This document shows, piece by piece, positions 6,285 to 62,755 of a stretch of DNA of 64,000 nt; within the stretch, counting starts at the first letter, position 1; the number at the start of each line of letters is the position of its first letter. The translations under genes were made by a program, and so were the position numbers. Source of the stretch: Acidisoma sp. PAMC 29798 (GTDB lineage: Bacteria; Pseudomonadota; Alphaproteobacteria; Acetobacterales; Acetobacteraceae); NCBI RefSeq assembly GCF_030252425.1, contig NZ_CP126994.1:682001-746000 (forward strand), written 5' to 3'. The notes under the pieces were generated by a model, which made no database searches, was not told the DNA's origin, and saw only the letters and a program-made list of their open reading frames with translations.

Positions 6285-6980
6285 ATGAACCTCGCACCGA
6301 CCGAGCTTGAGCGCCTCACCCTCTTCATGGCCGCCGAACATGCGCGGCGCCTGCGTGCCGTGGGCGTGCGGCTGTCCCACCCCGAGGCGGTGGCCCTGAT
6401 TGCCGATGAGATGATGCTCGCAGCACGACGCGGCATGACCTATGAGGCGATCGTGAATATGGCAGGGCATGTTCTGACCGCCGATGATGTCGAGCCAAGC
6501 GTGCCAGCGATGGTCGAGATGATTTCAGTCGAGGGCAATTTCACGCAAGGCACCAAGATGGTCATCGTCTTCAACCCCATCGGGCCAGGGTCAGAACCGG
6601 TGGAGGAGATGTTTGAGGCGGGTGAGGTGATCACACCGGACGGCGAGATCGAGCTGAACGCCGGCCGGCCGAAGATCGTGATCGACGTCATCAATACCGG
6701 CGACCGCGATATTCAGGTGCGCAGCCATACGCATTTCTTTGAAGTCAATCGCGCCTTGGATTTCGATCGTGCCCGGGCCTTCGGCATGAAGCTGGATGTT
6801 CTGTCAGGTGGGGGCTTTCGCTTCGAGCCGGGTCTGCGCAAGCGCGTGACGCTGGTGCCTTTGGCCGGCGATCGCATCGTGCGTGGCCAGGCAGGCCTGA
6901 CGGAGGGGCACTTGGATGATGAGGCGGTGAAGCAAGCGGCGTTCGCGGCGGCGAAAGCCGCTGGTTATCGGGGGGCGTGA
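6285..6980 (+). CDS. ureAB: Fused urease gamma-beta subunit (UreAB)
   Basis: A single 231-residue chain that joins the small urease subunits. Residues 1-100 are UreA-like (NLAPTELERLTLF, RGMTYEAIVNMAGHVL), and about 105-231 are UreB-like (TPDGEIELNAGRP, NTGDRDIQVRSHTHFFEVN). Most bacterial ureases encode these separately; gamma-beta fusions are known in Helicobacter and in some alpha-proteobacteria. The subunits form the scaffold around the UreC active site. The gene sits 10 bp after ureF and just upstream of ureC, so one transcript would supply the whole enzyme. The join lies at roughly residue 100-110, with a short linker near VEPSVPAMVE. Confidence 0.93.
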   Translation: MNLAPTELERLTLFMAAEHARRLRAVGVRLSHPEAVALIADEMMLAARRGMTYEAIVNMAGHVLTADDVEPSVPAMVEMISVEGNFTQGTKMVIVFNPIGPGSEPVEEMFEAGEVITPDGEIELNAGRPKIVIDVINTGDRDIQVRSHTHFFEVNRALDFDRARAFGMKLDVLSGGGFRFEPGLRKRVTLVPLAGDRIVRGQAGLTEGHLDDEAVKQAAFAAAKAAGYRGA

Positions 6981-6982
6981 GC

Positions 6983-8689
6983 ATGGCCACCATCTCCCGC
7001 CGCGACTATGCCGCCACCTATGGCCCCACGACGGGCGACATGATCCGTTTGGGCGATACCAACCTGTTTGCCGAGATCGAGCGCGACTATACGATCTATG
7101 GCGATGAGTTGACCACCGGCGCAGGCAAGATGATGCGCGATGGGGAGGGGTTCCAGACGACCGGCACCTATGCCTCCGGCGCGCTCGATTCCGTCATTCA
7201 AAACGCCACTATCATCGATCCTGTGCTTGGCATCATCAAAGCCGATATCGGTATTCGCGACGGTCTCATCGTCGGCATCGGCAAGGCCGGCAATCCCGAT
7301 ATCATGGCGGGCGTCGATCCCCATCTGCGCACCGGGCCGAATACCACCGTCTATCACGGCGAGCCCTATATCATCACGGCCGGCGCGGTGGAGGCGCATG
7401 CGCATTTCCTGTCACCGCAGCAATCCGAGCACGCTCTTGCAGGCGGGATCACCACGATCATCGGCATGTCGCCAGGACCGCATTTCGATGTGAGCTGTTC
7501 CGGCCCCAATGTGCTGGGTCAACTGATCCAGGGTGCCGACAATTCCTGCCTCAACTTCGGTTTCCTAGGGCGCGGCTGTTCCGATCCCGGTGCCGTTGAG
7601 GAGTCGGTCGCGGGTGGTGCGCTGGGTGTGAAAATCCATGAGGATTTCGGTGCTTCCGGCGCGGTCATCGACGGGTCGCTGATTGCCGCCGATCGCCATG
7701 ATTTCTGCGTCAATCTGCATACCGACACGATCAATGAATTCGGCTTCTGCGAAGACACGCTGCGGGTGATCGGCGACCGCACGATCCATATGTATCATAC
7801 GGAGGGCGCCGGAGGCGGCCACGCGCCGGACCTGCTGCGCGTCAATGGCCAGATGAACGTGTTGCCATCGTCCACCAACCCGACCAATCCCTTTACCTCC
7901 TACGCCCTCAATGAGGGGCTGCCGATGACGATGCTGGCTCATGTCATGAACTGGCGCTTGGCGGAGGATCTGGCTTTCGCGGAATCGCGCATCCGGCCGC
8001 AGAGCATGGCGGCGGAGGATTTCCTGCATGACATGGGCGCCATTTCCATTTTCGCGACCGATAGCCAGGGCATGGGCCGTTTGGCCGAAAATGTCGCGAA
8101 ATGCTGGCAACTCGCGAGCGTCATGAAGGGTCGTGTCGGGCGCCTGCCGGAGGAAACGACAGCGCGGGCCGATAATGAACGCATCAAGCGCTACATTGCC
8201 AAATATACGATCAACCCGGCCATTGCGGCGGGGATTGACGACCATGTCGGGTCAATCGCGCCGGGCAAGATGGCCGATCTGGTCTTCTGGAAGCGCGCGG
8301 CCTTCGGCATCAAGCCGTGGCTGGTGATGAAGCGCGGCTTCATCGCTTGGGCTGTGATGGGGGATGCCAATGCCAGCCAGATTGACAGCGAGCCGATGAT
8401 CCAGCGGCCCATGTGGGGCTCGACCGGCGTCTCCCCGCAGCATCTGGGCGTCACTTTCGTGTCGAAGCTCGCGATCGAGGCCGATATCCGCACAAAACTC
8501 GGTGTCGGCAAGAAGCTAGTGGCGATCCGCAACGTACGGCGTCTGACCAAGCGAGACATGATCCGCAACGATGCCCTGCCGAAGATCGAGGTCGATGCGG
8601 CGAGTTTCGAGGTGCGTGCCGATGGCCTGCTGCTGATGTGCGAACCCGCCGCCGTGGTGCCGCTCAACAGAAAGTACATGCTGCGATGA
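6983..8689 (+). CDS. ureC: Urease alpha subunit UreC, flap Cys replaced by Ala
   Basis: The 568-residue catalytic subunit, which hydrolyses urea to ammonia and carbamate at a di-nickel site. With the ATG at 6983 (a GGGGGG ribosome site lies upstream), residue numbers coincide with Klebsiella aerogenes from about residue 217 onward: carbamylated Lys217 in VKIHED, His219, His246, His272 and Asp360 are all present, as is the nickel HxH pair (His139/His141, EAHAHF). The mobile-flap motif that is normally VCHHLD reads LAHVMN here: Cys319 is Ala, His320 is kept and the next His is Val. In Klebsiella, Cys319 substitution is known to lower but not abolish activity, so the enzyme may be functional with altered pH or inhibitor response. 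The segment after HAHF (GMSPGPHF) also departs from the usual GGGTGPA. Confidence 0.93.
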
Positions 8690-49118: not shown

Positions 49119-50647
49119 TGCGCGATGGGCGCCGGCGTGGTCGCTGAGCGGAGCGGCAGGTCGTTCATCCCCCAGGCGACGGCAATGGCCAGCGCCATGG
49201 CGAAGGCGCAGGCAAGAAAGGATAAGTGGAATCCGCCGAGCAGGCCGGCCCGGATGATGTGACGCGCCGAACCGCCGAGCACACGCAGCGCATCGGCATG
49301 TTCGCGCAAGTCACTGAGCGACACCCGTCCCCCGACGCCCGCATCCGCCAGGCCCCGATTGAAACGGCTGGCCAAAAGCGTGCCGACAAGCGTCGAGCCA
49401 AAGGCGCCGCCAAGTGAGCGCAGGAACAGCAGGCTTCCGGTGGCGACGCCGACATCGCGGCGCTGGGCGGCATTCTGCACGATGACGAGGCTGCTCGGCA
49501 GCGTCGCCCCGAGGCCAATCCCGAGGATCGTCGTATAGATCATGCTGAAGGCGAGGGGCGTCTTTGCCTGCAAGGTGGCCAGCATCAGGAAGCCCAGCAT
49601 GCAGCCGAACAGCCCGACGATGAGCACTGTTTTCGTCTTGCCGAGGCGGCGCGCGACCTGGCCTGAGAGATAGGCGCCAAGGCAGCTCGACCCCAGTAAC
49701 GGCACCACGAGCAGGCCTGAGCGCGATGCGCTGGCACCGAGGACGAGTTGAAAGAACAACGGCAGCAGGAAGGTAACGCCGAACAGCACCAACGAGCTCA
49801 TGAAGGCGACGATGACGCCACGCAGGAAGACCGAATGGCCGAACAGGCGCGGCGGCAGCAAGGGATCGGTCGCGCGGCGTTCCTGAAGGAACAGCACGGC
49901 GATGAACGCGGCGCCGACGGCGGTGAGACTGAGGATGGGCGACGCCGTCCAGGGCATTGAAACCCCACCCCAGCTCAGCACCAGCAGCCAGCACGTGACG
50001 CCGCCGGTGAGTAGCGAGGCGCCGATCCAATCGATGGAGACTGATTGGCGCTGCACCTTCAGTGTCTTGAGCGCCTGATGACACAACAGGATGGCGAGCA
50101 AACCGATCGGGATATTCGCCCAGAAGATCCAGCGCCAGGAGAATTGATCGGTCACCCAGCCGCCGAGGATCGGCCCGGCGACGCTGGCGACACCCCAGGT
50201 TGAGGCCATATAGCCTTGATACCGCCCGCGCTCACGCGGCGAAATGACGTCAGCGACGGCGGCCTGCGCCATCGACATCAGGCCGGCGCCGCCGAGACCT
50301 TGCAAGGCCCGAAAGACGATCAATTGCGTCAGCGTCTGCGCCGCAGCACAGAGCCCCGAGGCGATGACGAAAATGACGAGGGCCGGCAGCAGCAAAGCCC
50401 GCCTGCCGTAAATATCGGACATCTTGCCGTAGATCGGCGTCGCGACCGTCGCCGGTAGCAGATAGGCCGTCAGAATCCAGGACAGATGGCCGAAACCGTG
50501 CAGATCGGCGGCGATGGCGGGCACAGCCGGAATGACCACGGTCTGGTCGATGGCGGCGAGCAGGATGCAGAGTAGAATGCCGGCCAGCACACGCATGATC
50601 TGCGCATGCGTAAAGAGGGGGATTTCTTCTTCGAAGACGTCGTTCAT
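49115..50647 (-). CDS. DHA2-family MFS drug exporter (14 TMS)
   Basis: A 510-residue major facilitator of the EmrB/QacA type, with about 14 membrane segments. Recognised points are LLAAIDQTVVIPAVPAIAADL in helix 1 (motif D1), GKMSDIYGRRALLL (motif A), RALQGLGGAGLMSMAQAAVADV, and STWGVASVAGPILGGWVTD (motif C, antiporter signature). It sits 4 bp downstream of the 5-oxoprolinase stop and is presumably co-transcribed. The exported substrate is not predictable. Confidence 0.9.
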   Translation of the reverse strand: MNDVFEEEIPLFTHAQIMRVLAGILLCILLAAIDQTVVIPAVPAIAADLHGFGHLSWILTAYLLPATVATPIYGKMSDIYGRRALLLPALVIFVIASGLCAAAQTLTQLIVFRALQGLGGAGLMSMAQAAVADVISPRERGRYQGYMASTWGVASVAGPILGGWVTDQFSWRWIFWANIPIGLLAILLCHQALKTLKVQRQSVSIDWIGASLLTGGVTCWLLVLSWGGVSMPWTASPILSLTAVGAAFIAVLFLQERRATDPLLPPRLFGHSVFLRGVIVAFMSSLVLFGVTFLLPLFFQLVLGASASRSGLLVVPLLGSSCLGAYLSGQVARRLGKTKTVLIVGLFGCMLGFLMLATLQAKTPLAFSMIYTTILGIGLGATLPSSLVIVQNAAQRRDVGVATGSLLFLRSLGGAFGSTLVGTLLASRFNRGLADAGVGGRVSLSDLREHADALRVLGGSARHIIRAGLLGGFHLSFLACAFAMALAIAVAWGMNDLPLRSATTPAPIAH

Positions 50648-50651
50648 GCGG

Positions 50652-53600
50652 CTACTCGGCTTTTCCAAACCCGCCGCCGGTCGGTGTCACGACGATGATG
50701 GCCTCACCGGCCGCCACGCTCACCTGCGCACAACCGCCGACATCGTCCAGACTGCCGTCCACGCGTCGGACCATGTTGAAACCGAGTTGCCCGTCCGCGC
50801 CGCCCTCCAGACCGAAGGGTGCAATCCGGCGATGGCCGGTGAGGAAGGAGCATTCCATGTCTTCCAGGAACCGGATGGTGCGGCTGGTGCCGTTGCCGGC
50901 ATGCCAGCGACCGACGCCGCCGGAATTCGGGCGGATGTGGAAATCCTCCAACACCACGGGCAGACGCGTCTCCAGAATCTCCGGGTCGGTGAGGCGTGAA
51001 TTCGTCATATGCGTATGCACAGCGTCGGTCCCGTCGAAGCCTGGGCCGGCCGGTGCGCCGGAGCAGAGGGTTTCGTAATACTGATACTGGGCATTGCCGA
51101 AGGTCACGTTGTTCATGGTGCCTTGCGCGGAGGCCATGGCCTGCAAGGCGCCGAGCAAACAATCCGTGACGGCCTGTGACACCTCGACATTGCCGGCAAC
51201 GACGGCGGCGGGATATTCGGGGGAAAGCATGGACCGCTCTGGCACGATGATGCGCAAAGGCCGCAGGCATCCGGCATTGATCGGAATTTCGTCATCGATC
51301 AGCAGGCGGAAGACATAGAGCACCGCTGCATTCGTGACCGGGCGCGGCGCGTTGAAATTGTCGGCGCGTTGCAACGAGGTGCCGGTGAAATCGACCACCG
51401 CCTCCCGCTTGGCGCGATCGATGGTGATGCGCACGGCGATGATGCAGCCCTGGTCCATCTCCACTGAAAATGACCCATCCTGCAAACGATCGAGCAGACC
51501 GCGCACGGCTTCCTCGGCATTGTTTTGCACATGGCCCATATAGGCATGCACGACATCCAGGCCGAAATGCCCGATCATCTTGCGCAGTTCAGTGATGCCG
51601 CGTGCATTCGCGGCGACCTGGGCCTTCAGGTCATTGACGTTCTGCACCACGTTGCGCGCTGGATAAGGCGCATCGCTGAGCAGCCGCACGACCGCCGCCT
51701 CGCGGAAACCATCGCCGTCGACGAGACGGAAATTGTCGATATAGACGCCTTCCTGCTCCACATTGGTGGCGCGCGGCGACATCGACCCCGGGGCGATGCC
51801 GCCGATATCGGCGTGATGGCCACGGCTGGCCACCCAGAACAGGATTGTCTCACCCTCGGCATCGAACATCGGCGTGCAGACGGTGATGTCGGGCAGATGC
51901 GTGCCGCCGTGATAAGGCGCGTTCAGCATGAAGACATCGCCGGGCCGGATGACTGCGTTATTGGTGATCACCGCCTTCACTGAACTATCCATCGAACCGA
52001 GATGCACCGGGATATGCGGGGCATTGGCGACCAACTCGCCGTGATTGTCGAAGACCGCGCAGGAGAAATCCAGACGTTCCTTGATGTTCACGGAATAGGC
52101 GGTGTTTTGCAGCGTGACGCCCATCTGCTCGGCGATGGACATGAAGAGATTGTTGAAGATCTCCAGCATCACCGGATCGGCATCCGTGCCCAGCGCGCGG
52201 CGCGTCGGCAAGGCGCGCACGCGTTCTAGCACCAGATGGTCGCGCGGCGTCACGGTCGCCGCCCAGCCGTCTTCGATCACCACAGTCTGGTTCGGCTCGA
52301 TGATGATGGCGGGACCCATGACCCGGTGACCGGGCGCGAGGGTCGCGCGATGGAAGACCACGGCATCCTGCCAGGCGCCACCGCTGAAGAAGCGGGTGCG
52401 CGCATCAGGCTCGGGTTTAGCCCTGGTTTCGGTTTCGGCCACCGGTTCGTCGCGCGTTGTGCTGCGGCTGGTGGCTTCCAACTCCACGGCCTCGACCGTG
52501 ATGGCCTTGCCGGCATCGATGAAACCGAAGCGCTGCCGATGCCCCTCCTCGAAGGAGCGACGCATGGCCTCGGCGTCGCTCGCCAGGATGGTGATGGTCG
52601 TGTCGGTGCCGGCATAACGCAAATGCGCACGCATCAGTACCGCGATGTCAGCCGCTGGCACGCCTTGCGCCAACAACTCATCCCGGCATTGCTGGGCCAG
52701 GCCCGTGCCGAGTTGCGCGATCAGCGCGGGGGCGCGGTCGTCGAGCGGCGCGTCCAGGCTCTGGCTGCGCGTCGCGCGCAGGGTCGCGAGACCCATGCCA
52801 TAGGCGGAGAGCACGCCCGACAGCGGATGCATCAGAATGCGCGTGATGCCGAGCGCATCCGCGACGAGACATGCATGTTGGCCGCCGGCGCCGCCGAAGG
52901 AGTTGAGGACATAGCGCGTAATATCGTAGCCGCGCTGCACGGAGATCTTCTTGACGGCCTCTGCCATATGCGCGACCGCAATTTGCACGAAGCCATCCGC
53001 GATCTGCTCAGCACTGCGGCCATCGCCCAGTTGCGACACCAAAGCGTCGAATCCAGAACGCACTGCGTCATGATCCAGCGGCTGGTCTCTGTTGGGTCCG
53101 AAGATGCTTGGGAAGAAGGCGGGCATCAGCTTGCCGAGCATGACATTGGCGTCCGTCAGCGCCAGCGGGCCACCACGTCGGTAACAGGCCGGGCCCGGCA
53201 CGGCGCCGGCCGATTGCGGGCCGACCCGGAAGCGCGTGCCATCGAAGCGCAGCAGCGAGCCGCCGCCGGCGGCCACTGTATGGATCAGTATCATCGGCGC
53301 ACGCATGCGCACGCCGGCGACCTCGGCCTCGAAGGTGCGCTCATAGCTGCCGTCGAAATGCGCAATGTCGGTTGAAGTGCCCCCCATGTCGAAGCCGATG
53401 ACACGGTCGAAGCCCGCAAGGCGGCCGGTTTCGGCCATGGCGACCACGCCGCCGGCGGGGCCGGACAGCACCGCATCCCGCCCCTGGAAGAGATCCGCAC
53501 CGGTGAGACCGCCCGACGAGGTCATGAACAGCAGGCGCGCGCCGGTGCGGCCGACCTCCAGCTCGCCCGACACGCGGTCGATGTAGCGGCGCAGGATCGG

Positions 53601-54251
53601 CGACAGATAGGCATCCACCACCGTGGTGTCGCCGCGCCCGACGAATTTGATGAGGGGCGATACTTCATGGCTGACCGAAACCTGGGCAAAGCCGGCCGCA
53701 CGGGCAGCAGCGGCGACAGCCTGTTCATGCGCCGGAAATCGGTAGCCGTGCATGAAGGCGATGGCCAGAGAGTCGAAGCCGGCGTCACGCAGATCACGCA
53801 ACTGTGCGGCGATCGCCTGCGGGTCCGGCGCTTGCTCCACCATGCCATCCGCCAGCACCCGCTCGGCGATTTCGACGACACGCTCATAGAGTTCCTGCGG
53901 CTTGACGATCTGGCGCGCGAAGATCTTGGGCCGCGCCTGATAACCGATGCGCAGCGCATCGCGGAACCCGCGCGTGACAAGCAGCGCCGTGCGTTCGCCC
54001 GCCCGTTCGAGCAGGGCATTGGTCGCGACCGTGGTGCCCATGCGCACCTCGTTAATCGTGTCGGCGGGGATGGGCTGCCCGGCGCTCAGGCCCAGAAGAT
54101 CGCGAATGCCCTGAACGGCGGCATCGGCATAGGCGTCCGGATTCTCCGAAAGCAGCTTGCCGGCCCGCAGGCTTCCATCCGGCGCGCGACCGATCACATC
54201 CGTGAAGGTGCCGCCGCGATCGATCCAGAAATCCCACGTGGTCTCGGGCAT
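50652..54251 (-). CDS. 5-oxoprolinase (hydantoinase A/B fusion, ATP-hydrolysing)
   Basis: A 1199-residue enzyme that uses ATP to open 5-oxoproline to glutamate. The N-terminal HyuA-type domain begins [16 protein letters not shown] (phosphate loop) and carries the [17 protein letters not shown]-like and [13 protein letters not shown] segments. The HyuB-type domain occupies about residues 680-1199 ([32 protein letters not shown] onward, as separate motifs). The start is the ATG at 54251; an upstream frame adds 16 residues. 5-Oxoproline could come from the ChaC-type enzyme encoded elsewhere in the window. The fusion in one chain matches eukaryotic-type OPLAH. Confidence 0.9.
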
Positions 54252-54366
54252 AGGCTTCCCAACTACAAGACGTCGTTCAGGTGCGATCCCTTGTGGCAAA
54301 ATTCAGCCGACCGCAAGGGCGGGAGACCCTTGCCTGGGTCGACGGCAAGACGTGGGTCGCGCGCCC

Positions 54367-55491
54367 TTACGCTGAATTGGCGCCTCTACTGAGGGTGCTG
54401 AACGGGCTTGTGACCTCCGCAACTAGGGCGATCAGATCGGCCTGACGGTGGGTCCCTGTTTTGAGGAAAAGGCTTTTGAGATGGCTTCGGGCAGTGCCCA
54501 AGGAGATGCCGAGTGCGGCTGCGGTTGCCGGCAAACCCCCGACCTCTACAAGTCCGAATAAAACGTCACGCTCACGCGCCGTCAGCGCGAACAGAGTTTT
54601 CAGGGTGGTCGTCGCCAACTCGGTTTCTGGTCTCTGGCGTATCACGGCCATGATTGAAGGTCCGCCCACTGCCGAACCGCTATTCATGAGGGGGTTGGCC
54701 AGCGGCAGCACGTGGCAAACGTGCCGAACACCGTCCTGCATTTCGATCAATGCAACATCATCCGGATTGGAACTGCCAGCTTGCCCGGTTCCATCGACGG
54801 TCGTGTCGGATCCCTTTGTGCGTGGCCTCATGACCCGTGCGAGGGGCAGGCCGCGATCAAGCAAGTCACGCGCGGCGTCATTCGCATGAATGACTCGCCC
54901 CATCGGGTCCAAAAGCAGAACCGCATCGGCCAATCTGTCAATTGCGAGCGTGAGGCGTTGCTTCTCGACCGTCGCGTGATCGAGCACATAGCCAACCCGC
55001 ACCGCACGGAGCACATGGGGCGCCAGCAACCGAAGACGCCTGATCGCGGCATCATCCGCCATGCCATGTCGGTCGGCCCTGATAAGGGACAAGGAGGCAA
55101 CGCGCGTCGGTGTTCGCTCAAGCATGACATTGATCACGTCACAGAAGCCTTGAGGTCGCCCCCATTCTTGAAAGAAGGGCGTTTGCGCGAAGCTGTCATA
55201 ATCCAGGATCGCCGTCAGCGGCGCGACGTCGCCAGGTTCGAGCGCCGCCATCGCCTCAATGATTGGGTTCGAGGCTGCCCAGCGCGCAATATATTGCGCC
55301 GTAAAATCGGGATCGTCGCCATAGGAATGGTAGAAGGTTGCCGTCCGCCCGATCCGCTCGTGACCATAGAGTGTCGCCGATGCGCTGGGCGTGATGACGG
55401 AGAGCTGCTTCAGGACTTCCGGCCAAAGCCCGGGCTGCATAGACGCCTCATAGATGAGGCCGATGACATCCGAATAGTCGTCGATTTCCAC
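54367..55491 (-). CDS. LuxR family regulator with PAS-like domain
   Basis: A 374-residue transcriptional regulator. The N-terminal half resembles an uncharacterised sensor region (LIYEASMQPGLWPEVLKQL); a PAS-like segment follows near residue 180 (AVLLLDPMGRVIHANDAARDLLDRG), and the C-terminal LuxR HTH is LTARERDVLFGLVEVGG through LGISLGTARSHLKSLFLKTGTHRQADLI. The start is GTG at 55491. It lies 47 bp downstream of the HExxH gene on the same strand, so it could regulate that group, or the 5-oxoprolinase operon next to it. Confidence 0.85.
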   Translation of the reverse strand: MEIDDYSDVIGLIYEASMQPGLWPEVLKQLSVITPSASATLYGHERIGRTATFYHSYGDDPDFTAQYIARWAASNPIIEAMAALEPGDVAPLTAILDYDSFAQTPFFQEWGRPQGFCDVINVMLERTPTRVASLSLIRADRHGMADDAAIRRLRLLAPHVLRAVRVGYVLDHATVEKQRLTLAIDRLADAVLLLDPMGRVIHANDAARDLLDRGLPLARVMRPRTKGSDTTVDGTGQAGSSNPDDVALIEMQDGVRHVCHVLPLANPLMNSGSAVGGPSIMAVIRQRPETELATTTLKTLFALTARERDVLFGLVEVGGLPATAAALGISLGTARSHLKSLFLKTGTHRQADLIALVAEVTSPFSTLSRGANSA

Positions 55492-55538
55492 TATTGCCTC
55501 GATCTTCGGTGATCATCCGAAGCTTCTGCTGTTTGATC

Positions 55539-56570
55539 TCAATCAGGCAAGGTTTCCATCGCCATGTAAGCGACGGCGCCTGCAAAGATCTCGGCACCGC
55601 GCGGCGTAAAACGCGCATGGGCGCGCACCACGCTGTAGCCGTCTTCGAAATTGCGCCGGCTACGGTCGATCGCAGCCAGCGCATCGATCCTTTCCGCATC
55701 ATTCAGCAAGCCGCTGACCAGGATAGCGGTCATGCCGAGATGCATGCGCGCCAGCACATAGCTCGCATGGGCCAAGCCTTCCATGGGCCGAGCATCGTAT
55801 CGCAGCGGGGAGGGGAAGCGTTCCGTATCGGGGTTTTCGACCATCCGCTTTCCCAGTGTCAGACCATGCAGCAAGCTATGCGCAGTCTCATGCACCAGCA
55901 CTTCCGCCATCTTGAGGCGATCGTCATGTGGCTCAGGATTAAGCATGAGAGCGCCCCAGGCGAAGAAGGTCGATGCGCCGTGCAGGGTCAAGTCCTTTGT
56001 ATCCCCTTCGGGCAATACGAACACGACCTCCGTCACCATGGTATCGATTTCTGCGGCGAGTGCCGGGTGACTTCTGCGCAGCAACGACCGTCCGGCTTCG
56101 AAGCGTGCCGTGGCGTCCGCCAAAGCGTCTGTCGATAGCGGTAGTAAATCGAGCGTGAGGTCCGAACCATCGAGAAAGTGATGACGATAGGAGTCGGCTA
56201 CCAACCGAGGAAGCGCGTCGCTGTCCAAGGTCACGCTGCGCAGACCGTTGGGTTCCGCCGACAGGCGGGGATCACCGAGAACGCCCAGAATGGCTTCCGC
56301 GCTGTCGCGGTCATCATCGAAGATCGCGGTGACGAGATCCCCGTACAGGGCCATAACGCCTGGCGGCATGCGATGGCTGCGGAGCGCCACCAACAAAGCC
56401 TCCGTTGCAGCCCGGTCGATCTGAAGATCGCCCTCGGCCGCGTGCAAGATCGCGTCTAGGCTTGTGGCTAAAGCCTGCCGCACACCCTGATCGACGGTGC
56501 GGCCACGCGCCGGATCAGGGTAGAAGCCAGGGTCCGTCACCGCATGCGCGGTGGTGGCAGCCTCACTCAC
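55539..56570 (-). CDS. HExxH motif protein, putative peptide beta-hydroxylase family
   Basis: A 343-residue protein with the metal-binding motif HETAH at residues 227-231 (VLVHETAHSLLHG). A downstream segment SPLRYDARPMEGLAHASYVLARM (residues 254-276, quoted here only in part: DARPMEGLAHASY) gives further candidate ligands Glu264 and His268. The HExxH plus Arg-Pro-rich second segment resembles the HExxH-domain group that accompanies RiPP precursors and for which alpha-ketoglutarate-dependent peptide beta-hydroxylase activity is proposed. The start is GTG at 56570, nine bases after the stop of a small precursor-like gene, which argues for coupling. The reaction is inferred from family and context; a protease role is not excluded. 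Confidence 0.7.
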   Translation of the reverse strand: MSEAATTAHAVTDPGFYPDPARGRTVDQGVRQALATSLDAILHAAEGDLQIDRAATEALLVALRSHRMPPGVMALYGDLVTAIFDDDRDSAEAILGVLGDPRLSAEPNGLRSVTLDSDALPRLVADSYRHHFLDGSDLTLDLLPLSTDALADATARFEAGRSLLRRSHPALAAEIDTMVTEVVFVLPEGDTKDLTLHGASTFFAWGALMLNPEPHDDRLKMAEVLVHETAHSLLHGLTLGKRMVENPDTERFPSPLRYDARPMEGLAHASYVLARMHLGMTAILVSGLLNDAERIDALAAIDRSRRNFEDGYSVVRAHARFTPRGAEIFAGAVAYMAMETLPD

Positions 56571-56579
56571 CGGCGGCGC

Positions 56580-56825
56580 TTAGAGCGGTGGCGGCTTGAC
56601 CGCGCCCACCTTCGTCATGCCCAACTTGGCTGTGATAGGTCTGTTTGTAATAGGCTTGGTCATACCGGCTTGAGCGGGGGGCTTGACCATGCCGCTTTTG
56701 CTTTGCGTCGTCTTGTCAACGCTCGTATCGGCGACAACAGTTGTCGTGTCTTGCTCGATCACGGCGAAGCCAAGAAGGTTTGCCCCCACCAATCGTTGTT
56801 GAACGGCGTGCAAAGACTTCGTCAT
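56580..56825 (-). CDS. Small precursor-like peptide (81 aa) with Gly-Met-x-Lys repeats
   Basis: An 81-residue polypeptide. The N-terminus (MTKSLHAVQQRLVGANLLGF) is leader-like, a Thr/Asp-rich middle follows (VIEQDTTTVVADTSVDKTTQ), and the C-terminal ~37 residues contain three Gly-Met-Val/Thr-Lys units at residues 45-48, 54-57 and 69-72, with Lys-Pro-Pro at 48-50 and 77-79. It has no Cys, and the tail has no acidic residue. A GAGGGA site precedes the ATG at 56825. It is the first gene of a group with the HExxH protein 9 bp downstream. A ribosomally made, modified peptide is the leading hypothesis. Confidence 0.65.
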   Translation of the reverse strand: MTKSLHAVQQRLVGANLLGFAVIEQDTTTVVADTSVDKTTQSKSGMVKPPAQAGMTKPITNRPITAKLGMTKVGAVKPPPL

Positions 56826-56906
56826 GCTATATTCCCTCAAGCCTATTTTTCGTTAAGTCTCTTCTGAAGCGGATCGCCCGCGCATGTCTATAAGATCGAG
56901 CACGGG
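56826..56906. promoter_or_regulatory. Short divergent promoter region of the putative peptide cluster
   Basis: Only 81 bp separate the precursor-like gene (leftward) from the ATP-grasp gene (rightward), so both promoters must share it. It is AT-richer than the coding DNA on either side. I cannot place -35/-10 boxes with confidence. Confidence 0.4.
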
Positions 56907-57875
56907 ATGATCATTTTTCTAGCGACACGCCATCATTGCTACACAGTGAAAGGTCTTTTGCAAGCCGGGTTTGGGCCGGATGCACCGGATTGTCATGTGA
57001 TGCCGTATGATGAGTTGTTCACGCTCGATACGCTGCAAGCGGCCACCTATATCTTCACGGACATCGAAAGGCTGCCTGCCTGGGATCGTCGGCTGGCGGC
57101 GGAATACTACCGGGGGTTGAAAGCTCTCGGCCTGCGCTGCCTGAATGACCCGGCCCGCGTCATGACCCGCTATCCCTTGCTCTTCGCCTTGCACGCAGCG
57201 GGTTTCAATCCCTTTCGGGCATGGCGCGTGGACGGCGATGTGCCGACGCCCCGCTTTCCGGTTTTCCTAAGGTTCGAGGCCGATCACGGACGGCCGCTGT
57301 CCGGGCTTCTCCACAGTGCTAATGCACTGGCCGCCGAAATTCTGTCGCTTCAGATGAGTGGTCTACCGCTTGTGGATGTACTTGCCATTGAGTTCTGTGC
57401 GCAGGAGATTGCTCCCGGCGCATGGCGCAAGCACGGCACCTATCGCATCGGCGATCGTGTCCTCACCGTGCAGGCCGTCGTCGAAGATGACTGGTGCGTG
57501 AAATACGGCAAGGCCGGTTTTGCGACCGATCAGATGTTCGTCGAGGAGCATGACGTCATCGCGCGGAATGCTTTTGCGGGGGCCATTGCACCGGCCTTCG
57601 ACATTGCGGCCATCGAATGGGGGCGGGCCGATCATGCAACCGTCGATGGGCGCGAGGTCGTTTATGAGATCAATACCAATCCCGGCGTCGGTATCGCGAC
57701 AGTGACGCATCGGTCGGAGCTGCATCTCGCGGCGGAGCGTTTGGGGCGGCAGGCGATCGCCGAGGCATTGGCGGAGATCGACACACCGGTCGGCGCCGAC
57801 GTCTGCTTTGTGCCGAGCCACTGGATAACCGGGCACCGTGCGCGGTGCGTGGCCGTCAACACCTATCAGCCGTGA
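56907..57875 (+). CDS. ATP-grasp domain ligase
   Basis: A 322-residue ATP-grasp-fold protein. The N-terminal third (MIIFLATRHHCYTVKGLLQAG) is a pre-ATP-grasp domain and the C-terminal third ends in the metal/ATP motif VVYEINTNPGVG, with the upstream IEWGRADHATVDG typical of RimK-like ligases. It forms a carboxylate-amine or carboxylate-thiol bond by an acyl-phosphate, so it could join an amino acid or modify a peptide. It is divergent from the precursor-like gene. Its substrate is unproven. The stop overlaps otnC's stop region by 10 bp on the opposite strand. Confidence 0.75.
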   Translation: MIIFLATRHHCYTVKGLLQAGFGPDAPDCHVMPYDELFTLDTLQAATYIFTDIERLPAWDRRLAAEYYRGLKALGLRCLNDPARVMTRYPLLFALHAAGFNPFRAWRVDGDVPTPRFPVFLRFEADHGRPLSGLLHSANALAAEILSLQMSGLPLVDVLAIEFCAQEIAPGAWRKHGTYRIGDRVLTVQAVVEDDWCVKYGKAGFATDQMFVEEHDVIARNAFAGAIAPAFDIAAIEWGRADHATVDGREVVYEINTNPGVGIATVTHRSELHLAAERLGRQAIAEALAEIDTPVGADVCFVPSHWITGHRARCVAVNTYQP

Positions 57876-58540
57876 TCATCCCCGTGCTGGTGTGCCACAG
57901 GCAGATCGAGATTGAAGGTCGCCGATAGATCCGCGATCTGCGCGGATGACAGCGCGCGGGGGTTGAGGCCGCGCAGCAGCAAAAACAGCTTCGCAGTCTC
58001 TTCCAACTCTTCCATCGCATAGACGGCGGCTTCCAGGCTTTTGCCGGCAACGACGGGGCCGTGATTGGCCAGCAGCACCGCGCTGTATTTCCCCGCGAGG
58101 CCGCGAATGGCGGTGGCAACCGCGGGGTCGCCAGGCCGGTGATAGGGCACCAGCGCGGTCTGCCCGACGCGCATGAGATAATATGGCGTGAGCGGCGGCA
58201 GAACGTCCTGGGGATCGATCTCCGGCAGCATCGAGACGGCCACGGAATGCGTGGAATGCAGATGCACCACGGCACCGGCGCCATGGCGGGTATCGTATAA
58301 GGCCGTGTGCAGCGGAATTTCCTTGGTGGGCTTGTCGCCCGAAACCAGGTGTCCGGCGGTGTCCAGCTTGGAAATTCGTGCGGGATCGAGAAACCCCATC
58401 GAGGCATCGGTCGGCGTCATCAGCCAGCCACCTTCCGGCAGCCGGGCGCTGATATTGCCGGAGGAACCGGGCGTCAGTCCGCGTTCGAACAGGGAGCGCG
58501 CGAAGGTGCAGATCTGCTCACGCAGGCGGGCTTCGGTCAT
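57866..58540 (-). CDS. otnC: 3-oxo-tetronate 4-phosphate decarboxylase (class II aldolase family)
   Basis: A 224-residue class II aldolase/adducin-fold enzyme. Metal-binding His residues are visible in VVHLHSTHSVAV and LLANHGPVVAG, and the Gly-rich substrate loop in GLTPGSSGNISARLPEG. It decarboxylates 3-oxo-tetronate 4-phosphate to dihydroxyacetone phosphate in the L-threonate/D-erythronate pathway. It is encoded on the minus strand next to lacI, with the rest of the pathway divergent from lacI. The assignment rests on the neighbouring ltnD, otnI and otnK. Confidence 0.88.
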   Translation of the reverse strand: MTEARLREQICTFARSLFERGLTPGSSGNISARLPEGGWLMTPTDASMGFLDPARISKLDTAGHLVSGDKPTKEIPLHTALYDTRHGAGAVVHLHSTHSVAVSMLPEIDPQDVLPPLTPYYLMRVGQTALVPYHRPGDPAVATAIRGLAGKYSAVLLANHGPVVAGKSLEAAVYAMEELEETAKLFLLLRGLNPRALSSAQIADLSATFNLDLPVAHQHGDDHG

Positions 58541-58568
58541 GCGAGGCTCCAGAAACCGAGAGGAAGGG

Positions 58569-59600
58569 TTACGCGGTCGCGCCTTCGATCAGATCGACGC
58601 CCAGATCGACCTTTTGCGACGGGGCGTCGCCACAGACCAGCATGGCGCCGACTTCGCCGATCTTCAGGCGCGGCGTGCGGACCGTGGACAGCGGTTGCGG
58701 CGCGACCTGCCCAACCTCCAGGGCGTTATGGCCGAACAGCGCCAGTGTGCCGGGGATCGCAATGCCGCGTGCGAGGCAGTGGAAATACCCGCCGAGGGCC
58801 ATGTCGTCATTCGAGAAATAGACCGCGTCAAGCTTGGGGGACCGCGCGAGAAGTGCGGCAAGGCCGCAGCGTCCGGCCTCGATCGATGACGGGGCATCCA
58901 CGATCTCCTTGTCGTGCAAAGGATGCCCAGCCTCCCTCAGCGTCGTCTCGAAGCCGCTCCAGCGTTTGCCGGCGCGCAGGTCGGTGCCGATCGTCATGCC
59001 GCTGCCATGCCCGACATAGCCGAAGCGCCGATAGCCGCGCGCAAGCAGATGCCGCGCCGCGACGCAGCCTGCGTCGAAATTCGAAAAGCCGACGATGATG
59101 TCGATGCCGTCGCCGTCCGTGTCCATCAGTTCGGCTATGCGGATGCCGGCGTTGCGCAGCATGGCCTCCGCGCGGGGGGTGTGTTCCAGCCCCGTCACCA
59201 ACAGGCCGGCGGGACGCCAGGCGAGAAGAGATTCGATCAGCGCCTCCTCCCGCGCCGGATCGTATTCCGTTACGGCGATGACCGGATGGTAGCCCATCGT
59301 CTCCAAGGGTCCCGCCGCCCCGCGCAGCACTTCCGGGAAGACGATATTGGCGAGGGACGGCAAGACGATCCCGACCAGATTGGAGCCGGAGGAGGCGAGA
59401 GTGCCGGCGACGCGGTTCGGCACATATCCCAGCGCGCGCACCGTCTCCATAACCCGCGCGCGCGTATCGGCGGCGATAGGGCCGCTGTTGCGGATGACCC
59501 GCGACACCGTGATTTCGCTCACGCCGGCCTGACGCGCGACTTCAGTGAGCGTGGTGCGTCGGGCGGTCTTGCGCCCTGCCGGGCGTGTCGGGTGATCCAT
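58569..59600 (-). CDS. LacI family regulator of the tetronate operon
   Basis: A 343-residue LacI/GalR-type repressor. The HTH lies near the N-terminus (TTLTEVARQAGVSEITVSRVI), followed by the hinge VPNRVAGTLASSGSNLVG and a periplasmic-binding-like sugar sensor (VGIVLPSLANIVFPEVLRGA, YFSNDDMALGG). I place the start at the ATG 59600; an ATG four codons upstream (59612) is possible. It is divergent from ltnD, with a perfect operator-like palindrome in between. It probably senses a tetronate or its phosphate. Confidence 0.9.
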   Translation of the reverse strand: MDHPTRPAGRKTARRTTLTEVARQAGVSEITVSRVIRNSGPIAADTRARVMETVRALGYVPNRVAGTLASSGSNLVGIVLPSLANIVFPEVLRGAAGPLETMGYHPVIAVTEYDPAREEALIESLLAWRPAGLLVTGLEHTPRAEAMLRNAGIRIAELMDTDGDGIDIIVGFSNFDAGCVAARHLLARGYRRFGYVGHGSGMTIGTDLRAGKRWSGFETTLREAGHPLHDKEIVDAPSSIEAGRCGLAALLARSPKLDAVYFSNDDMALGGYFHCLARGIAIPGTLALFGHNALEVGQVAPQPLSTVRTPRLKIGEVGAMLVCGDAPSQKVDLGVDLIEGATA

Positions 59601-59701
59601 CCGCCTTGTCATGCTCTGGGAAGGCTCCGGCGTCCAGACTGTCGTGTCGCGCCCGGTAAAACGCGTCTTGACCCGCCGCGGAGAGTTTGTCATGTGTGAG
59701 A

Positions 59702-59717
59702 ATGACAGCGCTGTCAT
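59702..59717. promoter_or_regulatory. Operator palindrome ATGACAGCGCTGTCAT
   Basis: A perfect 16-bp palindrome with the central CGCG-like GCGC step typical of LacI-family operators (TGACAGCGCTGTCA). It is placed between the divergent lacI and ltnD genes, 50 bp upstream of ltnD, as expected for autoregulation and control of the catabolic genes. Confidence 0.75.
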
Positions 59718-59766
59718 GGCTTTCTCGATGATTCGGGGGGTAAGAAGAGCGGCGCAGAGGAAAGAT

Positions 59767-60684
59767 ATGTCCGCCATGAGCAGCAGCACGCCGCAGGTCA
59801 CCGTCATCGGTCTCGGCTCCATGGGGTTCGGCATGGCGCAGTCGTTGCGGCGCGCGGGCTTCGATGTCGTGGGCTGTGACGTCACGGCCGCCGGGCGAGA
59901 ACGGTTCGTGGCCGACGGCGGCCATGCGGCCGCGACCCCCGCCGAGGCGGCGCGGGGATCGGCCATCATCGTCTCCGTCGTCGTCAATGCGGCGCAAACC
60001 GAGGCCGTGTTGTTCGGCCCCGACGGATGCGCGGATGTGATGGACGCGGACGCGGTATTCGTCTCCTCCGCCACCATGGCGCCCGATGTTGCCCTCGCCC
60101 TCGCGGCGCGGTTGGAAGCGACGGGTCGCCACTACCTCGATGCGCCGATTAGCGGCGGGGCGCAGCGCGCGTCGGAAGGCGCCTTGACCATCCTCGCCTC
60201 CGGCACGGCTGCCGCCTTCGATCGCGCGCGCCCGGCGCTGGATGCCATGGCCGCGACTCTCTACGAGTTGGGGGATAGCGCCGGCACGGGCGCCGCCTTC
60301 AAGATGATCAACCAATTGCTCGCGGGCGTGCATATTGCCGCCGCCTGCGAGGCGATCACCTTCGCGGCCAAACAGGGCCTCGATATCCGCCGCGTCTATG
60401 AAGTGATCACCGCCTCGGCGGGCAATTCCTGGATGTTCGAGAACCGCGTGCCGCATGTGCTGGACGGCGATTATGCACCGCGCAGCGCGGTGGAAATCTT
60501 CACCAAGGATCTCGGCATCATCATGGATATGTCGCGGAGCGAGAAGTTCCCGGTCCCGGTCGCGAGTGCGGCCTTGCAGATGTTCATGATGACGGCGGCC
60601 AATGGTATGGCGCGGGATGACGATGCCTCCGTCGCGCGGTTCTATGGCCGTATCACCGGCACGCCGCTGCCCGGCGATCAATAA
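59767..60684 (+). CDS. ltnD: L-threonate dehydrogenase
   Basis: A 305-residue beta-hydroxyacid dehydrogenase. The Rossmann loop is VIGLGSMGFGMAQSL, and the substrate/catalytic segments are APISGGAQRA (Gly-Gly substrate region) and GAAFKMINQLL with the catalytic Lys. It oxidises L-threonate (and similarly placed tetronates) to the 2-oxo acid. The ATG at 59767 follows GAGGAAAG; it could also start at 59776. First gene of the tetronate operon ltnD-otnI-otnK. Confidence 0.9.
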   Translation: MSAMSSSTPQVTVIGLGSMGFGMAQSLRRAGFDVVGCDVTAAGRERFVADGGHAAATPAEAARGSAIIVSVVVNAAQTEAVLFGPDGCADVMDADAVFVSSATMAPDVALALAARLEATGRHYLDAPISGGAQRASEGALTILASGTAAAFDRARPALDAMAATLYELGDSAGTGAAFKMINQLLAGVHIAAACEAITFAAKQGLDIRRVYEVITASAGNSWMFENRVPHVLDGDYAPRSAVEIFTKDLGIIMDMSRSEKFPVPVASAALQMFMMTAANGMARDDDASVARFYGRITGTPLPGDQ

Positions 60685-60695
60685 GGACGAGTGCC

Positions 60696-61478
60696 ATGCC
60701 CCGTTTCGCCGCGAACCTGACGATGATGTTCAATGAGGTGCCCTTCCTCGATCGCTTCGCGGCTGCCGCCGCGGCGGGCTTTTCGGCGGTCGAATTTCTG
60801 TTCCCCTATGAGCATCCGCCCGAGGCGGTGGCCGCTGCCTTGCACGACCACGGATTGACCCAGGCGCTGTTCAATCTGCCGCCGGGGGATTGGGCCGCCG
60901 GTGACCGTGGCATGGCGGCCCTTCCCGCACGCGTCACAGAACTCCACGAGAGTGTGGAGACGGCGCTGACCTATGCGGAGGCGACGGGCTGCACCACCCT
61001 ACATCTCATGGCCGGGATCGCGGATGCCGCCGATCCTGCGGCCCTCGCGGCCTATCGTGACGCCGTTGCCTGGACGGCCGACCGACTCGCAAAAGCGGGC
61101 GTGACGCTGGTGCTGGAGCCGATCAACAAGCGGGACATGCCCGGCTATTTCCTGAACGATTTCGCCATGGCTGAGCGGCTGATCAATGACCTCGCTCTGC
61201 CGAACTTGCGTTTGCAGTTCGACATCTATCACCACACCATCATGCACGGCGATGTCACGATGGCGCTGCGGCGGCTGATGCCGATCATTGGTCATGTGCA
61301 GATCGCGAGCGTGCCCTCTCGCCACGAACCGGCTGGGGAGGAATTGAACTACCCTTTCCTGTTCGAGGAGCTAGACCGCCTTGGCTATCAGGGATTCGTC
61401 GGCTGCGAATATCGCCCGCGCGCTGGCACTGAGGCTGGGCTTGGCTGGTTCGCGCCGTATCGGGCGTTTGCGGCGTGA
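60696..61478 (+). CDS. otnI: 2-oxo-tetronate isomerase
   Basis: A 260-residue hydroxypyruvate-isomerase-like TIM-barrel protein. Metal-site segments are LVLEPINKRDMPGYF (Glu), LRLQFDIYHHTIMHGD (Asp and His), IGHVQIASVPSRHEPAGEE (Gln, His) and GCEYRPR (Glu). It interconverts 2-oxo- and 3-oxo-tetronate ahead of the kinase. It lies 11 bp after ltnD and overlaps the following kinase start by 4 bp. Confidence 0.9.
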   Translation: MPRFAANLTMMFNEVPFLDRFAAAAAAGFSAVEFLFPYEHPPEAVAAALHDHGLTQALFNLPPGDWAAGDRGMAALPARVTELHESVETALTYAEATGCTTLHLMAGIADAADPAALAAYRDAVAWTADRLAKAGVTLVLEPINKRDMPGYFLNDFAMAERLINDLALPNLRLQFDIYHHTIMHGDVTMALRRLMPIIGHVQIASVPSRHEPAGEELNYPFLFEELDRLGYQGFVGCEYRPRAGTEAGLGWFAPYRAFAA

Positions 61479-62755
61479 CCCTCGCTCTCGGCTGTATCGC
61501 GGATGACTACACGGGCGCCTCGGACCTCGCCAATACGCTGGCGCGACAGGGGCTGCGCACGGTGCAGACGATCGGCGTTCCCGCCGGCGGCTTTGATCTT
61601 TCCGCCGTGGATGCCGTCGTCATTGCGTTGAAGAGCCGCTCAATCCCCGCCGAGGAGGCCATTGTCGCCTCCCGCAAGGCGGAGGCCTGGCTGCGCGGCC
61701 AGGGCGCGGATCATGTGCTTTTCAAGATCTGCTCGACCTTTGATTCCACAGATGCCGGCAATATCGGCCCTGTCTCGGATGCGCTGCGCGCCGACGGCGG
61801 CAACGCGATAGTGGTGGTGACGCCTGCTTTTCCCGCGACGGGACGGACCGTCTTCCAGGGCAATCTCTTTGTCTGGTCCACGCCGCTTAACGAGAGCCCG
61901 CTGAAGGACCATCCGCTCAACCCGATGCATGATGCGAACCTCGTGCGCGTGCTGGCGCGACAGAGCGCGACCCGCATCGGCCTGGTGACGCTCGACATCG
62001 TCGAAGCGGGTGTGGAAGCGGTGCGCGCGCGGCTTAAGGTTTTGGCTGCTGAGGGCTGTGGCATGGCCATCGTCGATGCGGTCTTCGACCATCATCTCCA
62101 CACCATTGGCATGGTGGCGCTCGGCTATCCGCTGTCGACCGGCGCCTCCGGCCTCGGGCTTGGCCTCGCCGTTGCGCTGATCGCCTCGGGCCGCGTGTCC
62201 GCAACGATCGCAGCGTCCGAGACGGCGGCGCCGGTTGGCGGATACGCCGCGATGCTTGCCGGCAGTTGCTCCGCCGCCACGCTGGCGCAGATCGACGCGG
62301 TGGCGGATCGGGTTCCCGTGCTGCGGCTGGAGGCGGAGGCTTTGCTCGCTGACCCGCACGCCGAAGTCGCGGCCGCGCTGGCTTGGGCTGTGCCGAAACT
62401 CGCGGCCGGTCCCGTGCTCATCGCCAGCTCTGCGACGCCCGACCGCGTGTCGGCCCTGCGGTCGCGCCCGGACGCGGAGAGCACCGGCCATGTCATTGAG
62501 CAGGCGATGGCAGGCCTCGCCGCCGGGCTGGTCGAGGCCGGAACGCGGCGGCTGATCGTCGCGGGCGGAGAGACCTCAGGCGCGGTCGTCGATCGGCTTG
62601 GTGTCTCGGGCTTTCTGATCGGCGCGGAAATTGCCCCAGGCGTTCCGGTGCTGCGGACCATGGCTGAGGGGCGGCCGGATATGTTGATGGCGCTGAAATC
62701 CGGCAATTTCGGCGGGCCGAGCTTCTTCACGGATGCCCTTGCCCTGATGGACTAA
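61475..62755 (+). CDS. otnK: 3-oxo-tetronate kinase
   Basis: A 426-residue DUF1537 four-carbon acid sugar kinase. The N-terminal substrate domain begins LGCIADDYTGASDLANTL and contains KICSTFDSTDAGNIGPV; the nucleotide-binding C-terminal domain has AGSCSAATLAQID and LIVAGGETSGAVVDRLG. It phosphorylates 3-oxo-tetronate at C4 for OtnC. The start is GTG at 61475, overlapping otnI by 4 bp. Confidence 0.9.
   Translation: MTLALGCIADDYTGASDLANTLARQGLRTVQTIGVPAGGFDLSAVDAVVIALKSRSIPAEEAIVASRKAEAWLRGQGADHVLFKICSTFDSTDAGNIGPVSDALRADGGNAIVVVTPAFPATGRTVFQGNLFVWSTPLNESPLKDHPLNPMHDANLVRVLARQSATRIGLVTLDIVEAGVEAVRARLKVLAAEGCGMAIVDAVFDHHLHTIGMVALGYPLSTGASGLGLGLAVALIASGRVSATIAASETAAPVGGYAAMLAGSCSAATLAQIDAVADRVPVLRLEAEALLADPHAEVAAALAWAVPKLAAGPVLIASSATPDRVSALRSRPDAESTGHVIEQAMAGLAAGLVEAGTRRLIVAGGETSGAVVDRLGVSGFLIGAEIAPGVPVLRTMAEGRPDMLMALKSGNFGGPSFFTDALALMD

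Follow-up and report, generated by a model that had tools for sequence, protein, structure and literature searches.

A candidate class of lysine-repeat peptides encoded with a predicted aKG-HExxH hydroxylase and ATP-grasp ligase in Acidisoma

In a stretch of 64,000 nucleotides from Acidisoma sp. PAMC 29798 (contig NZ_CP126994.1, positions 682,001 to 746,000; hereafter the window), a small gene for a lysine-rich peptide lies directly ahead of a gene for a protein with an HExxH motif and is divergent from a gene for an ATP-grasp ligase-like protein. We consider these genes to represent a real and widespread candidate class of ribosomally synthesized and post-translationally modified peptides (RiPPs), with a putative chemistry. 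The reading that we prefer, to which we give a probability of about 0.6, is a minimal RiPP system that would combine leader-guided hydroxylation of the repeats with ATP-dependent amide formation on their lysines. A sequence-only reading of the window had proposed a RiPP-like cluster of precursor, alpha-ketoglutarate-dependent HExxH (aKG-HExxH) hydroxylase and ATP-grasp ligase, and this proposal is now supported by family membership, fold and recurrence.

The peptide and its putative maturation enzymes

The precursor gene occupies 56580..56825 on the minus strand (ATG at 56825, stop at 56580) and encodes 81 residues that begin MTKSLHAVQQRLVGANLLGF... and end ...KLGMTKVGAVKPPPL; the list of open reading frames (ORFs) gave it as 86 residues, from an upstream TTG. 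A Shine-Dalgarno-like GAGGGA, read by eye, is placed 7 bases before the ATG (56838-56833, minus strand). A regular expression locates the leader motif LLGF at residues 17-20 (56766..56777, minus strand), and a tail with repeated lysine units, recognized from the sequence and from K[IVLMA]G enrichment, covers residues 45-81 (56583..56693, minus strand). Residue 45 is the start of the tail as read from the sequence, and the boundary between leader and core may lie elsewhere. The peptide contains no cysteine. Its tail is devoid of Asp and Glu, as had been reported, and the linker carries E24, D26, D33 and D37.

Small ORFs adjoin HExxH genes in other genomes, and we curated a family of 48, from 37 loci and 43-95 residues in length. 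Further precursors in L053 (one), in L077 (one more), upstream of the first HExxH gene of L048 (two) and as orphan copies stand outside the 48. The leader motif, searched as [LIMVF][LVIFM]G[FYILC] with the glycine fixed by construction, is present in 44 of the 48; around it Leu occupies position -5 in 38 and Phe position +3 in 37 of the 44, and the consensus across relatives is L-(D/N)-x-(S/G)-(K/R)-L-L-G-F-(K/R). The leader is followed by a variable linker and then by units of the form (G)-A-K-(V/I/L)-G-x-K. Examples of the repeat are found in L109 (...KLGAKQGSKLGSKIGSKVGTKVG) and L087 (...KLGAKFGAKIGAKPG), and KVGAVKPPP repeats in L049 resemble KVGAVKPPPL of the window peptide. The tail had been described as repetitive and lysine-bearing, which holds; what relatives have in common, however, is a Lys-[Val/Ile/Leu]-Gly-x(1,2)-Lys unit and not Gly-Met-Val/Thr-Lys as such. 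Absence of cysteine, and with it the mismatch to lanthipeptides, extends to 42 of the 48. None of 27 precursors matched NCBIfam at E (expectation value) <= 0.1; three of the 27 gave single weak Pfam matches, none to a leader family, and the NHLP/proteusin leader profile was not matched.

The motif K[IVLMA]G occurs 76 times in 44 tails against 10.4 +- 3.0 in 1000 shuffles. Since this set of tails was chosen partly by that motif, a comparison of upstream windows is the fairer test. One fixed regular expression for leader plus repeat, written after examples had been seen, picked out an ORF in 23 of the 34 windows that precede HExxH genes. Of 2001 control windows of the same size elsewhere in the same loci, 12 contained such an ORF; three of the 12 (one in L053, two in L077) look like real precursors by eye. 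Homologues of the small gene are thus found repeatedly next to the HExxH gene, with the leader conserved and the repeat core variable, in keeping with the role first suggested for it. The comparison supports the treatment of these small genes as one family of precursor-like ORFs, and these show what is generally expected of a RiPP, namely a short gene-encoded precursor that keeps its leader, varies in its core and lies next to modifying enzymes. Looser candidates picked by eye in windows that the expression missed include one in L083 (Hyphomonas beringensis), ahead of the HExxH gene at 3427-4500: a candidate precursor with an MLLGY leader and a quite different core, CKGGGRKKRRGGWSFWGWW.

The HExxH gene (55539..56570, minus strand) starts with a GTG 9 bases beyond the precursor stop and encodes 343 residues. 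Its product matches TIGR04267, the aKG-HExxH-type peptide beta-hydroxylase family, with 88.5 bits (cut-off 40), as do all 33 aligned homologues at E <= 0.001. The alignment (A6) was made without the partial ORFs L038 and L082 and the duplicate loci L054, L067 and L081, and L037 was trimmed by eye. The motif is HETAH at residues 227-231, and H227, E228, H231, R257, R261 and H268 are invariant in the 33. In the profile comparison ChlH (8s5f, E 4.6e-12) and SjiH (22nu/22ob, E 4.4e-11) come out as the nearest solved chains, and both share with the window protein the HExxH motif and a P.R.D.RP..G block; the equivalent of H268 is missing in SjiH. The structure model has a pLDDT (predicted local distance difference test) of 93.3 and in Foldseek finds 8s5f (E 2.1e-11, template-modelling score, TM, 0.67) and SjiH (22ob, E 9.7e-8). 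Only five matches reach E <= 0.001; SjiH is one of them and the other four are ChlB-HExxH chains. A metallopeptidase first appears at E 0.085. The evidence that the protein belongs to the RiPP aKG-HExxH family, and not to an unrelated metallopeptidase family, is strong, and so is its predicted identity as a maturase; the link to peptide beta-hydroxylases drawn at the outset is upheld. A scan of viral contigs with A6 matched 58 stretches, none of which was confirmed. Plasmid matches comprise four partial ones to HExxH (26-30% identity) and two to the ATP-grasp (31-33% identity).

The divergent gene (56907..57875, plus strand, 322 residues) is separated from that of the precursor by an intergenic region of 81 bp (56826..56906). 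On re-reading the sequence, the gene coordinates, both gaps and the divergent arrangement reported previously were correct. ATP-grasp enzymes activate a carboxylate and couple it to a nucleophile. No Pfam or NCBIfam family claims the window protein, its sole trace being a sub-threshold D-Ala-D-Ala ligase (Ddl) match at E 0.25; among 67 homologues, matches at E <= 0.01 are scattered, with RimK in one, D-Ala-D-Ala ligase models in six and two, and unrelated models singly. The alignment (A7) consists of the window protein and 66 references, taken from a list of 80 by dropping 14 near or second copies; duplicates (L054, L065, L067, L081) and weak, partial or overlapping sequences (L045, L046, L056, L077, L119) were left out. 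An AlphaFold2 (AF2) model of pLDDT 95.6 confirms the fold assigned at first sight: among the best 50 of 296 Foldseek matches (E <= 0.001) the nearest are LysX/ArgX (5k2m, E 8.2e-10), RimK and Ddl, at 12-19% identity, and the family profile matches Ddl chains at E 1e-4. All 67 share R240, D242, E254 and N256, and the D-E-N residues, which we take to be metal-ion binding, line up with the motif of Ddl. Comparison of the 67 with NCBIfam and Pfam gave no graspetide ligase model at E <= 0.01, and no graspetide synthetase is found among the same best 50 of 296. Sequence and model support an intact ATP-grasp fold with its conserved D-E-N residues, and the case for the protein as the likely second maturase is good.

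Recurrence of the genes and unlinked precursors

A search of the genome collection with the single ATP-grasp sequence matched 29 stretches, none of them confirmed, and the collection was rescanned with an alignment of five ATP-grasps (A4), among them L039, which we subsequently rejected as a triad. The scan gave 73 loci with ATP-grasp relatives, 33 of which have an HExxH ORF within the stretch covered. The HExxH-bearing loci span Alpha-, Beta- and Gammaproteobacteria and Verrucomicrobiota, with carriers that include Acetobacteraceae, Roseomonas, Bauldia, Hyphomicrobium, Dongia, Thioalkalivibrio, Gallionellaceae, Burkholderiaceae and Verrucomicrobiota. The ATP-grasp gene is often divergent from the precursor-HExxH pair and is co-directional in L072, L078, L079, L083 and L089; the genome of L048 has two sets, with precursors at each. 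Distances between HExxH proteins and between ATP-grasps correlate over the 33 pairs with r = 0.62 (none of 5000 permutations was as high, the top value being 0.32), a figure that includes organism phylogeny, uncorrected. Both enzymes have the same nearest neighbour in 19 of the 33 pairs. For L047, of Acetobacteraceae, the Burkholderiaceae locus L092 and the Verrucomicrobiota locus L087 are among the three nearest in both enzymes, a pattern which suggests that the set was passed on as a unit. These comparisons support the view that the three genes form a recurrent unit.

The ATP-grasp family appears in other surroundings too. In the HExxH-free loci L055, L058, L062, L063, L071, L091 and L103 it has a common neighbour, e.g. 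MKKLIAYRLNDHAPRMVPA... at L058 7302-8135, which we tentatively take to be DUF6065. In L086, L095, L096, L097, L099, L100 and L105 it stands in a conserved row with neighbours that by eye look like glycosyltransferases, which suggests another use of the family. The own genome's second ATP-grasp, of the same broad family (L040 6253-8003; G000:C1 near 2170000), overlaps a methyltransferase-like ORF by eye, and no HExxH or precursor was seen nearby. L039 (G209), considered as a triad cut by an edge and labelled 'cut' in the tree, was rejected, its neighbour fitting the other ATP-grasp context.

Class-wide searches starting from the HExxH protein and from the precursor covered 385 genomes each, presumably the same sample. 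The HExxH alignment matched 12 genomes, with close relatives in three (own genome 385 bits, G635 367, G478 349) and at most 178 bits in the other nine; no ATP-grasp at E <= 0.001 was found in six neighbourhoods (L135-L140) of the nine. The precursor profile (A8, built from 27 of the 48 curated peptides, with that of the window as a row) at E <= 0.001 matched the own genome, G478, G635 and G453 only, the G453 match overlying a (GEAR)n repeat. The three genomes with close HExxH relatives are therefore the same three with credible precursor matches; the precursor profile includes the own and G478 peptides among its rows, and G635 is in neither profile. G635 has an HExxH gene, a precursor-like ORF and two ATP-grasps, and its profile match is an unlinked copy and not the ORF beside the enzymes. 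The search of 37 chosen genomes gave a precursor match at E <= 0.05 in 27 of 32 carriers, the misses being the genomes of L064, L066, L069, L083 and L094. Carriers whose precursor is outside the profile were matched in four of nine cases (G635 and the genomes of L057, L060 and L102), not all at the enzyme locus. Among the HExxH-free controls L058, L062, L070, L095 and L112 there was one match, with E 0.03 and inside a 361-residue frame.

Some precursors are unlinked to the enzymes. In the own genome the profile finds the window peptide at the top (E 3.7e-14, itself a row) and, at E 0.012, a separate gene, G000:C1:1143716-1143856 (L142 1486-1626, minus strand), encoding the 46 residues MSKSLERLQAVLAEVDLVGFKASSDISQIKIGDPKLGAVKPPPAGN. 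This gene has an AAAGGAG ribosome-binding site and, by eye, a downstream GC-rich stretch with a run of seven T, and is apparently monocistronic. Its product corresponds to the window peptide at the leader start (MSKSL / MTKSL), at LVGF / LLGF and at GAVKPPP. As the genome has a single HExxH gene of the kind found in the window, the orphan would need modification in trans. G635 likewise has an orphan (L148 1498-1704, MTKSGLDVSKLLGLR...), with an LDVSKLLGLR leader and KTGKIDR-type repeats, unlinked to the HExxH and ATP-grasp genes. These copies suggest that the enzymes also act in trans. Elsewhere, L137 6193-6486 encodes a peptide with four [VI]LDTTxAxPxxGK repeats and immediately precedes a more distantly related HExxH gene (6502-7491); an ATP-grasp is absent there, and the peptide perhaps represents another precursor family.

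Proposed chemistry and its alternatives

In the open-access literature (subscription papers lay outside the search) we found, among the papers listed, no description of an aKG-HExxH protein and an ATP-grasp in one cluster, in line with the initial impression that the gene set had not been described. Two listed papers that use all the relevant terms concern a microviridin protease (PMC13039773) and cyanophycin synthetase (PMC9262961). The closest precedent in logic is corallotide, of graspetide group 15, which combines a precursor with a repetitive lysine motif, an ATP-grasp ligase and a 2-oxoglutarate (2OG)/Fe(II) oxygenase (PMC13097080). Its enzymes belong to other families (CorB TIGR04187, CorC PF13640), and it requires a partner Asp for the ring (KxxxD), whereas the units here are K-[VI]-G-x-K, with roughly one repeat stretch in two being acid-free. 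The ChlB, PflC/PosC, BpmH/BipH and PesO clusters apply the same HExxH domain family, with the 8s5f fold, to an encoded peptide, and the residues that such enzymes are reported to hydroxylate in their precursors are Asp, His, Gln, Phe and Pro (PMC12636437, PMC13060819). The partners described are radical SAM, MNIO, JmjC and asparagine-synthetase-like (AS-like) enzymes; unlike in our system, an ATP-grasp is nowhere mentioned in PMC12636437, PMC13060819 and PMC12707348. The pfl precursors, with an NHLP leader and poly-Gln-ARMD (PMC12636437), are unlike those described here. The nitrilobacillin pes cluster also pairs an HExxH hydroxylase with an ATP-dependent carboxylate enzyme, which is asparagine-synthetase-like, forms a C-terminal nitrile and is accompanied by an MNIO (PMC13060819).

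We propose that the maturation enzymes would recognize the N-terminal leader of a precursor in which a linker and a core rich in lysine, built from K-[V/I/L]-G-x(1,2)-K units, follow the leader. As an Fe(II)/alpha-ketoglutarate oxygenase, the HExxH protein would hydroxylate residues within these units and would probably do so repeatedly; hydroxylation is placed there because the lysine unit is the conserved feature of the cores. The ATP-grasp would activate a carboxylate and join it to amines of the peptide, most likely the lysine side chains of the repeats, and this carboxylate could be supplied by a small acid or amino acid, by the precursor C-terminus or by an acidic residue outside the repeats. 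The target residues, the order of the steps, the identity of the carboxylate, the removal of the leader and the biological role are matters that we infer.

Several observations weigh against this reading. HExxH is absent from 40 of the 73 ATP-grasp loci in the stretch covered, some of these being cut by contig ends; its linkage is scattered on the ATP-grasp tree (nine changes; shuffled mean 22.6), and HExxH-free clades adjoin other genes. Given the HExxH-free loci and the scattered linkage, the ATP-grasp family is not exclusive to the peptide system. The partnership first proposed holds for the 33 HExxH-bearing loci, and the family occurs also where neither HExxH nor precursor is present. In G478 the precursor is directly upstream of the HExxH gene, and the flanking DNA, about 6.5 kb to each side, contains no ATP-grasp, the nearest good one being about 190 kb away. 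The phylogeny contained in the distance correlation belongs here as well. The strict precursor expression fails in 11 of 35 HExxH windows, with one more ended at a locus edge, and several candidates in the failing windows were picked by eye. Lastly, Asp or Glu is present somewhere after the leader motif in 34 of the 36 precursors having motif and unit, all except L057 and L077_4.

That last observation bears on the main rival, a graspetide-like system in which the ATP-grasp closes Lys-Asp/Glu side-chain rings and the HExxH protein hydroxylates near the ring, as in corallotide. We judge this unlikely but serious. The precedent shows repeated KxxxD acted on by an ATP-grasp and a 2OG oxygenase to give 5-hydroxylysine isopeptides (PMC13097080), and Asp or Glu follows the first unit in 20 of 39 repeat-bearing precursors, e.g. 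KIGEK in L084. From the first unit to the C-terminus the other 19 are acid-free, as is the window tail, and a ring within the repeat stretch is impossible in these for lack of an acidic residue; L057 and L077_4 have none even after the leader motif, and the negative searches for graspetide ligases and synthetases given above tell in the same direction. A ring to a linker residue is, from the sequences, possible in most precursors. The acid-free tail had been taken to set the peptide apart from ordinary graspetides; since the linker has acidic residues, a graspetide-like ring is less firmly excluded than that implied. The argument that acid-free cores exclude such a ring is weakened by linker Asp/Glu in nearly all precursors, for which reason we raised this rival and lowered the preferred reading, and the more specific version of it given below, a little.

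It is doubtful that the ATP-grasp works instead on the precursor C-terminus, by adding an amino acid or by a lactam from lysine to the C-terminus. LysX/ArgX and RimK extend or derivatise protein carboxylates. They are the nearest solved folds, among the best 50 of 296, to a protein that, unlike them and Ddl, is named by no family profile and has an apparent lysine-rich peptide partner; this likeness may be general ATP-grasp kinship (TM about 0.5). Moreover, the 48 curated precursors end in 13 different residues (Ala 10, Gly 6, Arg 6, Asp 5, others at most 4), and the internal lysine units are the conserved part. The notion that the ATP-grasp is a chance neighbour, unrelated to the peptide, draws on the other gene contexts of the family and on the G478 pair; we hold it to be improbable in view of the co-occurrence in 33 of 73 loci, two phyla and both orientations, and of the correlated enzyme distances. 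Oxidative cleavage at the repeated glycine, from peptidyl-Gly to amide, would yield short amidated peptides. PflC and PosC, of the same domain family, are described as hydroxylating Gln and cleaving the backbone to an amide, and the unit has, by motif construction, a Gly after [V/I/L]. They target a conserved ARMD that the window peptide does not have (PMC12636437), and cleavage leaves the ATP-grasp without a role, so that we find it quite improbable. An ordinary metallopeptidase that trims the peptide is very improbable: the HExxH motif itself and the leader-independent proteolysis reported for PflC (PMC12636437) speak for it, but TIGR04267 is matched in 33 of 33, Foldseek reaches metallopeptidases only from E 0.085, and the P.R.D.RP..G block is shared with ChlH and SjiH.

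Within the preferred reading of hydroxylated repeats with amide-bonded lysines, acylation of the repeat lysines by an external carboxylate is tentatively favoured because of the acid-free repeats and the 13 kinds of C-terminal residue. A more specific version, which is conceivable with the odds against it, has the unnamed ATP-grasp family hanging small carboxylates, e.g. amino acids, on the repeat lysines of the hydroxylated core, with unlinked precursors processed in trans.

Surroundings of the locus and significance

Downstream of the HExxH gene lies a PAS/LuxR-type regulator gene (54367..55491, minus strand), whose product matches PAS_8 with 22.0 bits (cut-off 21.8) and GerE weakly, with 18.3 bits, below the cut-off of 23.5. 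The LuxR regulator reported earlier does lie there; it was rejected as a member of the unit, as blastp at E <= 1e-3 among the ORFs of loci L037-L120 finds only the protein itself, and it is probably outside the recurring set. A conserved exporter was also rejected, the ABC transporter common to six HExxH loci giving only 65-98 bits at varied positions, and a rough test, with antisense ORFs interfering, showed no recurring protease or dedicated exporter in the 14 largest neighbour clusters. No sigma-70-like promoter match was found in 54300-58000. The G+C content has its minimum of 0.555 at 56600-57199, other windows of 50000-61999 having 0.59-0.69, and no HExxH protein match was found in four same-genus genomes. 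Both would fit a patchy, mobile gene set, and do not prove it. By eye, 57866-62755 carries aldolase-like, LacI-type regulator, dehydrogenase, isomerase-like and kinase-like genes that resemble a tetronate-catabolism operon, and a hydantoinase-like gene is found at 50652-54299.

Genome comparison thus points to a candidate RiPP class of Proteobacteria and Verrucomicrobiota with a recognizable leader and a lysine-repeat core. It places an unnamed ATP-grasp family beside an identifiable peptide substrate, so that the reaction becomes directly testable, and would add a new kind of substrate to those of the young aKG-HExxH enzyme family. The orphan precursors show that a search confined to the neighbourhood of the enzymes misses some of these peptides. 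If the more specific proposal is true, this would be a new RiPP class of branched, hydroxylated lysine-repeat peptides, in which one enzyme pair serves unlinked precursors.

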